A stretch of DNA of 64,000 nucleotides, from the NCBI GenBank assembly GCA_019240405.1, contig JAFAYL010000013.1:62001-126000 (forward strand), written 5' to 3'. This DNA is from Acidobacteriaceae bacterium (GTDB taxonomy: Bacteria > Acidobacteriota > Terriglobia > Bryobacterales > Bryobacteraceae). Of the stretch, positions 57,331-62,288 are shown piece by piece. Position 1 is the first letter of the stretch. The number at the start of each line of letters is the position of its first letter. A program made the translations under genes and the position numbers. Under the pieces are notes generated by a model that was not told where the DNA came from, ran no database searches, and saw nothing but the letters and a program-made list of their open reading frames with translations.

Positions 57331-59187
57331 CTAGGACAGAACCTGTTCTGATTCGGTTCTTCGCCTCCGCAGCGGCATACGCAGCCGGAGCACCCGCGCG
57401 CGCGCTCGTTCCTCTTCGAGATTGCGGCTTCTTGCCCGCAGCAAATCGTCGAGCGAGATCATGCCGATTAATCGTCTTGTTTCGTCCCGCTCGACGACCG
57501 GCATGCGCGTGAAACCAGATTCAACCATTCGATAGACCACAACCCGCAAAGGTTCATCCGGATAGGCAACAACCGGTTTTCGAGAGGCAACGTCGCAAAG
57601 GCGCTCAATGGACGCAGTCAGCTTCGTTTCGTCGAACAGCCTCAACAGATGGTTTCGGCTGACTACGCCCAACACACGCCTGTCCCCGTCAACCACCGGG
57701 AAAATGTGTTGACCGTGCGGCTTCTGCTGCGGATGAATTAAAGCTCGCGCTTCTTCAAGAGTTCCGTCTTCGGGAAGCGCAACTACATTGGTTCGCATGA
57801 CTTCGCGGACGAAGAGAATCTCGAGCGGATCAATCGCATACTCGCGGCTTAAGTGATAGCCGCGGCGCGAGATTTTTTCGGTAAGTATCGAGCGTTTTAA
57901 CGTCAGCACAGTAAACGCGTGCCCTAGGAAGCAAGCCACAACCAGCGGCAATAGCATGTTGAAGTCGTGCGTTAGCTCGAGCGCAAACACGATTCCGGTG
58001 AACGGCGATCTCATAGTGCCTCCGAGAATCGCACCCATGCTGACGAGCGGCCAAAAGCCGTGCCCGAAGTGAGGCAAGAACCACCCCTCAAGCCCACCCA
58101 ATGCAGCGCCCATCATCAACAGCGGAGCCAAAACGCCGCCCGAAGTACCGGATCCAAGTGAGATGATCCAAATGGCTGATTTAACCAGCAGGACTCCGAG
58201 AAGAAACTTGAATACCGTATCTCCCTTCAGCAAAAGCCCGATCGTGTCGTAGCCAACTCCTAATGCCTGCGGAAAAATCAGCCCGCCGATCCCGACGAAT
58301 AGGCCGCCGATCGCAGGCCACCACATCCAATGAATAGGTAATTTTTGAAAGAAATCCTCCGCCGCGTAGACGCCCACCGTCAGTAATGCCGAAAGCGCTC
58401 CCGCAAGGACCCCCGTGATAGCGCAGCCGATCAACCCTTCGGCGCCGATAAACGCTGGATGAGCTGGAACCGGGAACAATGGGCCCATTCCGAGGATGTA
58501 GCGCCTCGCGGCTCCTGCTGTCGCACTCGCGAGCGCAACAGGAATGGCGCTGCGCGGCTTCCATTCGAACAAGAGCAGCTCGACAGCGAGCAGCACGGCA
58601 GAAAGCGGCGCAGCAAATGTGGCCGACATACCTGCGGCTGCACCCGCAACCAGCAACGTCTTGCGTTCCACGCTGGTCAGATGGAAGAACTGCGCGATCA
58701 TTGACCCGAACGCGCCGCCCGTCATAATAATGGGCCCTTCCGCGCCAAACGGGCCGCCCGAGCCGATAGAAATCGCTGCCGAAAGCGGCTTCAAAACGGC
58801 TAAGCGCGGATGAACGCGGCTGCCGTTCATCAAGATCGATTCGATCGCCTCGGGAATACCATGCCCTCGAATGCGCTCGGATCCATAGCGCGCCATCAAT
58901 CCGACAATCAGAGATCCGATAACGGGAATTGCTATTGCAAAAACGCCAAGATGATTGCCCGCCGGAGAAGAGAGCGCAGTATTGAAACGCTGGTAATAGA
59001 ACAGATTTGTAAACAAGCCGATGAGCTTGAGTAAAAACCAGGCAACGAAAGAACTGATCACGCCGATCGCGATTGCTAGCAGAGAAATCGGTATGACTCG
59101 CGTCGTCGTCGTGAAGTCGCCCAGTTCTTCTGCTGCTTTTTTCTGCTTGTGATGTAGGGTCTCGCGGTTCGTAGCTGTGGCGCTCAT
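57331..59187 (-). CDS. ClC-family chloride channel/antiporter with two CBS domains
   Basis: 618-aa membrane protein. About 18 helical segments of the ClC fold cover residues 30-440, with the selectivity motifs GSGGPFGAEGP (relatives have G-R/K-E-G-P; Ala replaces Arg here) and GTSGGVLAPLL. Two CBS domains follow (about 465-580), VREVMRTNVVALPEDGTLEEA and RKPVVAYPDEPLRVVVYRMV, which bind adenine nucleotides in relatives. It exchanges Cl- for H+ or conducts Cl-. Its ATG overlaps the stop of the upstream MarR gene (ATGA), so the two are one operon. Confidence 0.92.
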   Translation of the reverse strand: MSATATNRETLHHKQKKAAEELGDFTTTTRVIPISLLAIAIGVISSFVAWFLLKLIGLFTNLFYYQRFNTALSSPAGNHLGVFAIAIPVIGSLIVGLMARYGSERIRGHGIPEAIESILMNGSRVHPRLAVLKPLSAAISIGSGGPFGAEGPIIMTGGAFGSMIAQFFHLTSVERKTLLVAGAAAGMSATFAAPLSAVLLAVELLLFEWKPRSAIPVALASATAGAARRYILGMGPLFPVPAHPAFIGAEGLIGCAITGVLAGALSALLTVGVYAAEDFFQKLPIHWMWWPAIGGLFVGIGGLIFPQALGVGYDTIGLLLKGDTVFKFLLGVLLVKSAIWIISLGSGTSGGVLAPLLMMGAALGGLEGWFLPHFGHGFWPLVSMGAILGGTMRSPFTGIVFALELTHDFNMLLPLVVACFLGHAFTVLTLKRSILTEKISRRGYHLSREYAIDPLEILFVREVMRTNVVALPEDGTLEEARALIHPQQKPHGQHIFPVVDGDRRVLGVVSRNHLLRLFDETKLTASIERLCDVASRKPVVAYPDEPLRVVVYRMVESGFTRMPVVERDETRRLIGMISLDDLLRARSRNLEEERARARVLRLRMPLRRRRTESEQVLS

Positions 59188-59707: not shown

Positions 59708-59730
59708 TCAAAATCGGTGTAGGCGAATAA

Positions 59731-60408
59731 ATGGCGAATACAGCCGCTTTACTTCGCGCTCAAGAGCTCTGGAAACCAGCTTCCCGGCTCCCTTTAGTCC
59801 GTGATGAGCCGGTTTTCCTTCCACTTGAAGTACCAGCGCTTAAGCGGCTCTGGAAAAAAGGCTTAACTCGCGGCGGAATCGCTGAAGTGTATGGGAATCG
59901 TTCCTCTGGCCGCACGTCGGTGTATCTGCATATTCTGGCGCAAGTGACAGCACGAGGCGAAGTCTGCGCCGTCGTCGATTTGCACAATAGCTTTCATCCC
60001 GGTTCCGCTGCTACGGTTGGAGTGCGATTAGAGCAACTGCTTTGGGTCCGTTGCCAGGGAAATGCCGAACATGCAATGCACGCAGCCGACCTGTTGCTCC
60101 ATGCCGGCGGCTTCGGCGCGGTTGTTTTGGATCTCTGCGAAGCCAGTGCTCGCGTGTTGAATCGCATTCCTTTGTCGTATTGGTATCGCTTCCGGCGAGC
60201 TATAGAAAACACTCCGGCCATTTTAGTTGTATGCAGCGGAATTCAACAGGTTAAATCCTCAGCCAACAGCAGTCTGTGGCTCAAACGTAAGGCATTACAT
60301 TGGTCCGGCCAAGCGCCTTTTTATCTGTTGCGCAGTTTAGAATTCACCGCGGCGCTGCGAACTCCACGGGCGGTGTCCCCACCCCTTTCGATTCGGGCGG
60401 TGACATAG
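59731..60408 (+). CDS. ImuA-like RecA-fold protein
   Basis: 225-aa protein with a RecA-type core: KGLTRGGIAEVYGNRSSGRTSVYLHIL carries a P-loop-like GNRSSGRTS with Arg in place of the Walker Lys. A hydrophobic strand AVVDLHNSFHP follows near 88, and LLHAGGFGAVVLDLCEA near 130 matches the Walker B position. These features, plus the ImuB-like gene two bases after its stop, identify an ImuA/SulA-like accessory protein of a translesion-synthesis mutasome. Loss of the Walker Lys suggests weak or no ATPase activity. Confidence 0.72.
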   Translation: MANTAALLRAQELWKPASRLPLVRDEPVFLPLEVPALKRLWKKGLTRGGIAEVYGNRSSGRTSVYLHILAQVTARGEVCAVVDLHNSFHPGSAATVGVRLEQLLWVRCQGNAEHAMHAADLLLHAGGFGAVVLDLCEASARVLNRIPLSYWYRFRRAIENTPAILVVCSGIQQVKSSANSSLWLKRKALHWSGQAPFYLLRSLEFTAALRTPRAVSPPLSIRAVT

Positions 60409-60410
60409 CC

Positions 60411-61718
60411 ATGTATGCGTGTCTTTATCGGCCGGCAGCAGAGGATGCGGCCAATAGGCTTCTCGAATTAGCGCTCCATTTTTCTCCTGCTGTTGAACGC
60501 ACTTCCAGCGATACGGTTGTCTTCTCAATCGTTTCATTACGCAAGCTGATGGGATCGCCGCACCAGATTGCTTCAGAAATTTGCCGCCTCGGATACGAAC
60601 AGAAACTCGAAGCTAATCTGGCGATCGCCTCGAATCCGGATACGGCAATTTTGTTGGCGCGCAATTGCGCTGGAGTAATTCTGGTAACCCCGGGAGAAGA
60701 AAATTTCAAGTTGGCTTCTCTGCCTCTCGCCTGCCTATTTGCCGTCCAGACAAATGTGAGCTTGGATTTGCTCGAGACGCTACAACGGTGGGGCCTAAAA
60801 ACGTGTGGAGATTTAGCTGCATTGCCGGAACAAGGCATAGCGGAGCGCTTAGGAGCGACTGGCATTTACCTCCGCAATCTGGCCTGCGGAAAAATCAATC
60901 GGGCGCTTCGTATTCCACCGCCAAAAACCAGTTATGAAGAGCGGATGGAACTGGAGCATCCCATCGCTTTGCTGGAGCCGCTCCTATTTTTATTCAGCCG
61001 GATCCTGAACGAGTTATGCGGGCGATTGCGAGCGCAATCGCAAGGTGCATGCGCGCTTGAAGCTCGGTTGGAATTGGAAGAACAAAAGAAATATCGCTGT
61101 GAGTTGGAATTTCCAGTTCCTCTTACCGAAAGCGCTGCCATGCTGAAGCTCTTACAGCTTCATTTAGAGCGCCATGCTCCCGAAGCGCCCATTCTTGCTT
61201 TTACGTTGCGGCTGAAGACAACCGAGCCGCGGCGTGTGCAACACGGATTCTTTCTTCCACCCGCTCCACCGGCAGACAAGCTCGAGCTCACTTTGGCTCG
61301 CATTGAAGGAATGGTAGGAAAACAAAATGTTGGCGCGCCGGTGTTGCTGAATACGCACCGGCCGGATGCGTTTCAAATAGCGCCATTTCATGTGCCGGAC
61401 ATGGAAATGGTCCAGAAAAGTCTCCATACGGAAACCCCGGCAGATCAACAGGTACTCCGCTTGGCTATACGCCTGTTTCGTCCCGCGTTGTATGCCAATG
61501 TAAAAGTCGCGGGAACGGCTCCTCAAGGCGTGAGTGCGCCCGGGGTGCAAGGAAACGTAATACGATCAGCCGGTCCTTGGAAGACCTCCGGCGAATGGTG
61601 GGCATCCACATCCTGGATACGCGAAGAATGGGATGTGGCGTTAGATGACGGAGCGCTTTATCGCATCTATCAAGAATCGCCAAGCCGAGAATGGTATGTA
61701 TACGGCATATACGATTAA
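60411..61718 (+). CDS. ImuB-like Y-family polymerase homologue, shortened and apparently non-catalytic
   Basis: 435-aa protein starting at ATG 60411. It opens like ImuB (MYACLY) but moves at once to the later palm helix (LLELALHFSPAVE). The first palm strand and fingers region of roughly 60-90 residues, which bears the first catalytic Asp, are missing. At the second site relatives with activity have D-E, but here the strand is TVVFSIVSLRKLMG. The thumb (TLQRWGLKTCGDLAALPEQG) and little-finger/C-terminal regions are present. ImuB normally acts as a clamp-binding, inactive scaffold for DnaE2. No DnaE2 gene follows. This form could be an old degenerate or a purely structural version. Confidence 0.75.
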   Translation: MYACLYRPAAEDAANRLLELALHFSPAVERTSSDTVVFSIVSLRKLMGSPHQIASEICRLGYEQKLEANLAIASNPDTAILLARNCAGVILVTPGEENFKLASLPLACLFAVQTNVSLDLLETLQRWGLKTCGDLAALPEQGIAERLGATGIYLRNLACGKINRALRIPPPKTSYEERMELEHPIALLEPLLFLFSRILNELCGRLRAQSQGACALEARLELEEQKKYRCELEFPVPLTESAAMLKLLQLHLERHAPEAPILAFTLRLKTTEPRRVQHGFFLPPAPPADKLELTLARIEGMVGKQNVGAPVLLNTHRPDAFQIAPFHVPDMEMVQKSLHTETPADQQVLRLAIRLFRPALYANVKVAGTAPQGVSAPGVQGNVIRSAGPWKTSGEWWASTSWIREEWDVALDDGALYRIYQESPSREWYVYGIYD

Positions 61719-61787: not shown

Positions 61788-62288
61788 TTGGAGATTACGC
61801 CCGAACACCCGCCATCTTGTCCCGAGAGCGGCCCAAACCTGAGCGCCGAAACCTTCGCTGAAGCGTATCGAACCGGCTTATCTATAACCGAGCGCTTCCT
61901 TATATCGCGGGGCTGTCCCCTCGATATGGCTGAGGAACTGGCGCAGGCCGCGTGGACAAAGGGCTGGCAGTACCTGCCTCAACTCCGGGATCCAAATTTG
62001 CTCGTTCACTGGGTCAATTCGATTGCGCTCAACTTGAGGCGGGGAATGAGCCGCATGCCAATGCTGCTACCGCTTCAGGAATGCGGGCAGCCGCCCAGCT
62101 TGGACAGGAATATCGATTTGGAGCGAGCCCTGGCTCAGCTCGCCGCGCCAGATCGAAAGTGGATTGAAAGCTTTTATCTCGAGGGCTTCGCGATTCGAGA
62201 GCTTGCGAGAAAAGGTATGAGGTCCGAAGGCTCGCTGAGGATTCGTCTTCACAGAATTCGCAAAAAGATAAGACACAGATTGAGCTGA
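61788..62288 (+). CDS. ECF-like RNA polymerase sigma factor
   Basis: 166-aa protein with a sigma region 2-like helix bundle (ITERFLISRGCPLDMAEELAQAAW, HWVNSIALNLRR, about 35-100) and a region 4-like helix-turn-helix (APDRKWIESFYLEGF, IRELARKGMRSEGSLRIRLHR, about 118-160). The only start in frame after the TAA at 61779 is TTG 61788, with no clear Shine-Dalgarno, so expression is uncertain. No anti-sigma gene is adjacent on either side. It lies 69 bases after the ImuB-like gene. Confidence 0.68.
   Translation: MEITPEHPPSCPESGPNLSAETFAEAYRTGLSITERFLISRGCPLDMAEELAQAAWTKGWQYLPQLRDPNLLVHWVNSIALNLRRGMSRMPMLLPLQECGQPPSLDRNIDLERALAQLAAPDRKWIESFYLEGFAIRELARKGMRSEGSLRIRLHRIRKKIRHRLS

Follow-up and report, generated by a model that had tools for sequence, protein, structure and literature searches.

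In the known ImuA-ImuB-DnaE2 system, ImuB binds the sliding clamp through a clamp-binding motif and ImuA through a RecA-NT motif (PMC10421592, PMC11791113), and published models place the DnaE2 contacts on the thumb and the ImuB-C domain of ImuB (PMC12926913). Timinskas et al. 2026 (PMC12926913) describe deletions of structural elements in many ImuBs, even the most reduced of which retain thumb, little finger and ImuB-C. The same paper treats ImuA3 as the ATPase-type class of ImuA, and states that no multisubunit complex containing a bacterial Y-family member has an experimental structure. Systems composed of an inactive PolY, a standalone ImuB-C, DnaE2 and RecA also exist, as described in PMC6511836. 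The passages of PMC12926913 considered here name no fingers-only deletion, Acidobacteriota pattern or split cassette, although its supplement may have them. In the literature surveyed on ImuB, DnaE2, the mutasome, inactive Y-family proteins, acidobacterial LexA and its SOS box, no recurrent acidobacterial fingers-only deletion was found, nor a split cassette with a common box, nor the box itself.

The window analyzed here is a stretch of 64,000 nucleotides from the genome of an Acidobacteriaceae bacterium (4.45 Mb, 63 contigs). We consider it highly likely that it carries an SOS-regulated ImuA-ImuB mutasome accessory operon, in which the adaptor ImuB has undergone a clean deletion of its fingers and from whose cassette dnaE2 has moved.

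The imuA-imuB locus and its neighbours

The two genes lie on the forward strand, imuA directly 5' of imuB and 2 bases apart (Table 1). ImuA has RecA-fold homology (Pfam PF00154, E 3.8e-15) and matches the ImuA model NF033429 with E 1.1e-7, which is under the model cut-off. Its orthologues adjoin imuB in relatives. Together with the open reading frames and the Y-family matches of ImuB, these data bear out the ImuA-ImuB pair that a sequence-only reading had placed at 59731-61718. As that reading had noticed, the Walker A lysine position of ImuA is occupied by Arg, and the intact Lys of ImuA3 is thus missing. Among the acidobacterial ImuA ORFs tabulated, Arg occurs in 79/98 and Lys in 16/98, the Arg-type ORFs lying beside a fingerless ImuB in 47 cases and beside a fingered one in 32. 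Since Arg is usual, it was rejected as a special trait of this ImuA. Three more ORFs of RecA-like length (G000:C9:207976, C46:75882 and C11:56035) match ImuA with similar strength, so the genome may contain several RecA copies.

Table 1. Features of the imuA-imuB locus, in window coordinates.
Feature	Position	Strand	Description
Putative LexA operator TTCGCCATTTATTCGCC	59722-59738	-	spans the imuA ATG at 59731; exact match to TTCGN3TTTNTTCGCC
imuA	59731-60408	+	RecA-like mutasome accessory protein, 225 aa; Walker A reads GNRSSGRTS
imuB	60411-61718	+	fingerless, catalytically dead Y-family adaptor, 435 aa; Y-family matches, AlphaFold2 model
First palm beta-strand MYACLY, residues 1-6	60411-60428	+	alignment; model strand 2-6
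Junction, residues 7-12	60429-60446	+	about 70 fingers residues absent relative to full-length ImuB; alignment, models, profiles
Rest of palm, about residues 13-95	60447-60695	+	without the metal-binding acids as a set; limits approximate
Thumb, about residues 97-165	60699-60905	+	model elements, PDB structure alignment; limits approximate
Little finger, about residues 176-271	60936-61223	+	model, structure alignment; limits approximate
Putative beta-clamp-binding motif QHGFF, residues 277-281	61239-61253	+	motif class conservation; binding predicted
RecA-NT-like motif, residues 289-313	61275-61349	+	presumed ImuA contact; conserved helix 3' of clamp motif
ImuB-C domain, residues 351-435	61461-61715	+	conserved AGPW..SGEWW..EWD core common with long ImuBs; beta-rich in model
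Sigma-like ORF	61788-62288		3' of imuB; clear region-4 match

Upstream of imuA, on the opposite strand, a MarR-type regulator recurs beside imuA in 8/16 close loci. A large membrane-protein gene (57331-59187, also opposite and 5' of imuA), which we take to encode a ClC channel, recurs in 6/16. The sequence-only reading had also pointed to a sigma factor following imuB. This ORF is real and matches region 4, with no region-2 family listed in the Pfam scan, but tblastn gave no hits to it in 27 related stretches (two of them dnaE2 loci, and several ending soon after imuB), which leaves a role in the cassette unsupported.

ImuB has lost its fingers domain

The ImuB product starts with ATG at MYACLY, which aligns with LYASLH of full-length ImuBs from relatives of the same order. 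In this alignment the first palm strand is followed by an absence of about 70 residues and then by the helix preceding the second palm strand, with long and fingerless ImuBs aligning on either side of the gap. The Pfam IMS profile (148 positions) was matched over positions 72-145 by the window ImuB, 4-147 by a full-length order-relative ImuB and 1-148 by the genome's own DinB. PF00817 scored 21.8 bits in the window ImuB when searched alone (cut-off 23.2) and 23.7 bits in the genome search. Y-family homology is clear from the ImuB profile A3 (E 4e-11 against Pol IV 4irc) and from folds that match Dpo4 and Pol IV. When 47 ImuBs (44 fingerless) were combined into a profile, its matches to Dpo4 and Pol IV (4irc) began only at residues 81 and 82, respectively; a profile of mostly fingered ImuBs extends back to Dpo4 residue 42 and 4irc residue 26. 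We take the Dpo4 fingers to be about residues 11-77.

The AlphaFold2 model of ImuB, built from a 47-row alignment, had a mean pLDDT of 88.6 and a pTM of 0.56, a value that makes the domain placement unsure. Mean pLDDT was at least 87 in each ten-residue block of residues 1-270, and residues 271-350 were of low confidence. The model shows a strand at 2-6, a helix at 13-24, strands at 28-32 and 35-39, and further elements after them. Its residues 1-272 align to Dpo4 (1jx4) residues 2-341, with 264 aligned residues, Z 16.4 and an rmsd of 13.9, which suggests that the domains are placed differently; the first aligned residues are model residue 1 and Dpo4 residue 2. At the gap, the model of a long relative's ImuB has a strand (49-53), two helices (56-60 and 69-79) and a strand (86-89), where the window ImuB has nothing; only the order of elements was used from this long model, owing to its low confidence (mean pLDDT 68.1, 9 sequences).

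When a fingers-segment profile was run over all frames of the window, no match was found near imuB (best E 0.021, at 57335), while the own DinB gave 1.8e-9. The fingers domain usual for ImuB is therefore missing from the protein, which has palm elements, then thumb, little finger and the C-terminal parts. The sequence-only reading had proposed a loss of about 60-90 N-terminal residues. It was right that a large part of the N-terminal module is absent, but the loss is internal, comprises about 70 fingers residues and leaves MYACLY in place. With the first strand kept and no fingers match near imuB, an N-terminal truncation was rejected: the change is a clean internal deletion of the Y-family fingers domain.

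The same reading had called this ImuB non-catalytic, and the alignment agrees. The Asp pair on the first strand of the own DinB is replaced by Y and P, and the second catalytic site reads DT instead of DE, so that only its Asp is kept, though not in all kin. The catalytic acids are also absent, as a set, from long order-relative ImuBs.

Behind the little finger, an alignment to ImuB for the clamp-binding motif, proposed earlier as a check, gave QHGFF as the predicted site, which is weaker than QxxLF. The motif class Q..[LIMF][FWYL] is present in 59/60 fingerless and 41/42 fingered ImuBs. It is followed by a conserved helix (288-302) in the right place for RecA-NT, judged by alignment and position without a motif model, and this order of motifs matches the description in PMC11791113. 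The invariant core of ImuB-C aligns with that of full-length ImuBs.

The fingerless ImuB is a conserved gene

Fingerless ImuB is encoded in 10/12 same-genus genomes, where the frames are open without internal stops and conserved columns run along the whole protein; the main matches of the nine others are 61-67% identical. In G005 the gene consists of two contig-edge pieces, and in G007 it ends at the contig end. The two genomes without a genus-type ImuB are G004, which is 79% complete, and G002, whose cassette is of another type. Two fingerless imuB copies are found in strain KBS 96, the record of which carries no MAG label.

At 435 aa, against open frames of 502-609 aa in order relatives (family f3), the gene could be taken for a pseudogene in decay or for an artefact of annotation or sequencing, and an error removing codons after MYACLY had been named as one way in which the palm might appear shortened. 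Such an error is excluded by the conservation in the genus and in KBS 96, and no frame of the window encodes a fingers-like segment close to imuB. The uninterrupted frames, the conserved columns and the two copies in one strain thus refute this explanation, to which we give practically no weight.

In KBS 96 the two copies (L056 and L060) lie on a single scaffold, each within an imuA-imuB-dnaE2 cassette. For L056, tblastn found imuA and dnaE2 in several pieces, as if frameshifted, and for L060 in one piece each. On G005:C83 (L043), in a genome with 7% estimated contamination, part of another imuB-dnaE2 pair was seen (40% and 63% identical).

dnaE2 is present in the genome and linked to fingerless imuB in relatives

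Contrary to the earlier claim that DnaE2 is absent, the genome search that the sequence-only reading had recommended found two DnaE-type polymerases as well as DinB. The one on contig C22 matches the NCBIfam model NF004225 (error-prone DNA polymerase) with 1211 bits against a cut-off of 939 and is DnaE2; the other is presumably DnaE1. Orthologues of this dnaE2, at least 75% identical, occur in 10/12 same-genus genomes, including that of the window. The C22 protein is 69% identical to the DnaE2 encoded directly 3' of fingerless imuB in L060 of KBS 96 and 74% identical to that in L055, a MAG. About 640 bases separate imuB and dnaE2 in L055, and the KBS 96 copy in L056 matches in several pieces.

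The sequence-only reading had suggested a mutasome reduced to clamp or scaffold functions or one serving another polymerase. In the second case a reduced scaffold that had dropped DnaE2 would work with, for example, DnaE1 or DinB. DinB and the presumed DnaE1 are present, imuAB and dnaE2 lie on separate contigs, and imuB is not followed by dnaE2 at 10/13 close fingerless loci whose downstream DNA exceeds 2.6 kb. Yet dnaE2 does follow at the other three (L055, L056 and L060), and in the survey described below it lies directly 3' of imuB at 39/60 fingerless and 33/42 fingered loci, short flanks and contig edges being counted as they are. The wide presence of the orthologue in the genus, and a box at dnaE2 that is the same as at imuA and lexA, also speak against service to another polymerase. 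So does G002, from which the genus types of ImuA, ImuB and DnaE2 are all absent and in which another type of each is found; this replacement fits a functional unit, though it is a single event. The partial sets in G003 (78% complete, ImuA-ImuB without DnaE2) and G004 (DnaE2 without ImuA-ImuB) may be due to incompleteness. We regard service to another polymerase as quite improbable. The survey linkage and the counts at close loci indicate instead that a fingerless ImuB is mostly part of a complete cassette and that dnaE2 was moved away in the window's lineage. As dnaE2 is unlinked in the window's own genome, the ImuB-DnaE2 partnership there is read from the orthologues and the shared box.

A common putative LexA box

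A 17-bp box, TTCG-N3-TTT-N-TTCGCC, which is an 11-bp direct repeat, is common to lexA, imuA and dnaE2. It is present at lexA in 11/11 same-genus genomes tested, with 0 mismatches (G004 left out), at imuA in 15/15 close loci tested, with 0-1 mismatches (L032 and L055 left out), and at dnaE2 in 9/9 tested, with 0-2 mismatches (10 genomes with an orthologue, minus G001; 1 mismatch in the window's genome), counts that describe and do not test the pattern, because it was read from the same promoters. Outside the genus, imuA of G013 has the box with 1 mismatch. In the sister genus (n=2), L073 has it with 1 mismatch, as does L067 when a wider stretch is searched (5 mismatches in the first stretch). 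The other-type cassette of G002 carries it with 1 mismatch. It was found neither at the own dinB (best 5 mismatches) nor in the imuB-dnaE2 intergenic stretch of L055 (best 4 mismatches). The candidate operator for the window's genus thus stands at 59722-59738 of the window and at L045, L040 and relatives.

None of 1170 letter-shuffled stretches reached 1 mismatch, and 0.34% reached 2. Genome-wide, at up to 1 mismatch, the box was not commoner than its reversed control (15 sites versus 13); 3/15 of these sites lie at lexA, imuA and dnaE2, and 2/4 exact sites at lexA and imuA. One of the 12 other sites, L198 (G000:C34:78344-78360), lies with one mismatch just 5' of the gene for a radical-SAM protein (Pfam: Radical_SAM only), which in our view resembles spore-photoproduct-lyase-type enzymes. 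Sites L189, L196, L200 and L201 each precede a long open frame by at most 100 bases.

Judged by its promoter positions, the box may be the LexA operator, and the common box at imuA, dnaE2 and lexA means that the split imuAB and dnaE2 loci probably form one LexA regulon. A dnaE2 elsewhere in the genome under what looks like classical regulation is the situation that the sequence-only reading had itself set against a mutasome without DnaE2.

Distribution and phylogeny of fingerless ImuBs

A search of the phylum gave matches in 256/396 genomes, the weakest of which may be other Y-family proteins. The survey comprised 89 loci (L064-L152), 30 of them the tool's best matches and 59 chosen by hand. 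The own copy (L064) was left out, 81 loci were classified, and L111, L129, L133, L135, L139, L146 and L152 remained unclassified for want of an anchor segment or for too low a score. Nine loci repeating genomes already included (L047, L048, L050-L053, L057, L058 and L061) were left out throughout. Scored with the fingers profile, 104 acidobacterial ImuBs fell into 42 with E up to 1.7e-9 and 62 with E of at least 0.0026, and the cut-off of E 1e-6 was set within this gap. The tree rows were the classified acidobacterial ImuBs except two contig starts (L066 and L092), the window ImuB, nine plasmid-borne proteobacterial ImuBs and the G002 protein. Its 113 rows comprise 62 without and 51 with fingers, a proportion that gives no estimate of frequency because of the way in which the survey loci were chosen.

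The window ImuB falls in a clade of 16 rows, all fingerless (SH-aLRT 99). By parsimony this quick tree, in which 34/110 inner branches are open and which carries a long-branch warning, requires at least five changes of the fingers state, four of them forced by starred branches. A single clade of all 62 fingerless rows was rejected (p 9e-48). The fingerless ImuB of G002 is a case separate from the acidobacterial rows: it lies in a proteobacterial-type clade whose nine plasmid members in the sample all have residues at the place of the fingers, eight of the nine scoring up to 1.6e-5 and the ninth 0.0041. With the 61 acidobacterial fingerless rows placed as one clade, the AU test was borderline (p 0.045), so how many losses took place inside the phylum is uncertain. 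This value and the quick nature of the tree, with its open branches, speak for a single ancient deletion that descent and transfer have spread, the recurrence in the phylum being only apparent; the forced changes and the position of the G002 protein make this history unlikely in our opinion. Loss of the fingers was probably repeated.

In G002 the proteobacterial-type imuA-imuB-dnaE2 cassette on C29 (L039) stands in place of the genus type, with an ImuB that is also fingerless and with the same box. The fingerless ImuBs of L081, L144, L106, L117, L114 and L083 have a variable, low-complexity linker where the fingers would be, which is long in L081, L144 and L106.

Proposed mechanism and significance

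In the mechanism that we propose, DNA damage would release LexA from two matching boxes, one over the imuA start codon and one at the distant dnaE2. ImuB would dock on the sliding clamp via QHGFF and the little finger, its RecA-NT-like helix would bind ImuA, and its thumb and ImuB-C would recruit DnaE2, by which the synthesis, presumably mutagenic, would be carried out. The palm sheet may have been retained because it is closed without the fingers and carries the thumb. In active Y-family polymerases the fingers contact the template base and the incoming nucleotide; as they serve nucleotide selection there, an adaptor that is dead can do without them. In this ImuB, the segments for which a partner contact is known or modelled have survived and the lost part belongs to the polymerase, which fits the clamp and scaffold role that the sequence-only reading had put forward.

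A more far-reaching version, which we offer tentatively and hold to be doubtful, is that excision of the fingers is a recurrent, selected remodelling of acidobacterial ImuB that frees space over the primer end for DnaE2 on a clamp-bound platform of palm, thumb and little finger, and that in the window's genus the operon became two LexA-controlled loci and retained its function.

These observations bear on the role of the dead polymerase core of ImuB in the mutasome. The fingers alone have been lost, in a natural and conserved change that was probably repeated, and this shows which part is dispensable as against the constrained palm, thumb, little finger and ImuB-C. The fingerless ImuB is also a compact protein for structural work, and the common promoter box is a candidate LexA operator for the window's group.

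Comparison with known systems

The window ImuB shares the fold of palm, thumb and little finger with the active Y-family polymerases DinB and Dpo4. It differs from them in lacking the catalytic acid set and the fingers and in having a RecA-NT-like motif and ImuB-C in addition. As in the systems outlined in PMC6511836, a modular mutasome would be built around a dead Y-family protein; unlike in those, ImuB-C is fused and ImuA is present. Like the reduced ImuBs of PMC12926913, it retains ImuB-C, little finger and thumb, and also the palm. Since it fits the description given in that paper, it belongs to the reduced ImuBs known since 2026. With the known ImuA-ImuB-DnaE2 system the locus has in common the dead Y-family core, the clamp motif, the RecA-NT-like motif, ImuB-C, imuA upstream and putative LexA control, and it differs from that system in an ImuB without the fingers domain and in a dnaE2 located outside the operon.
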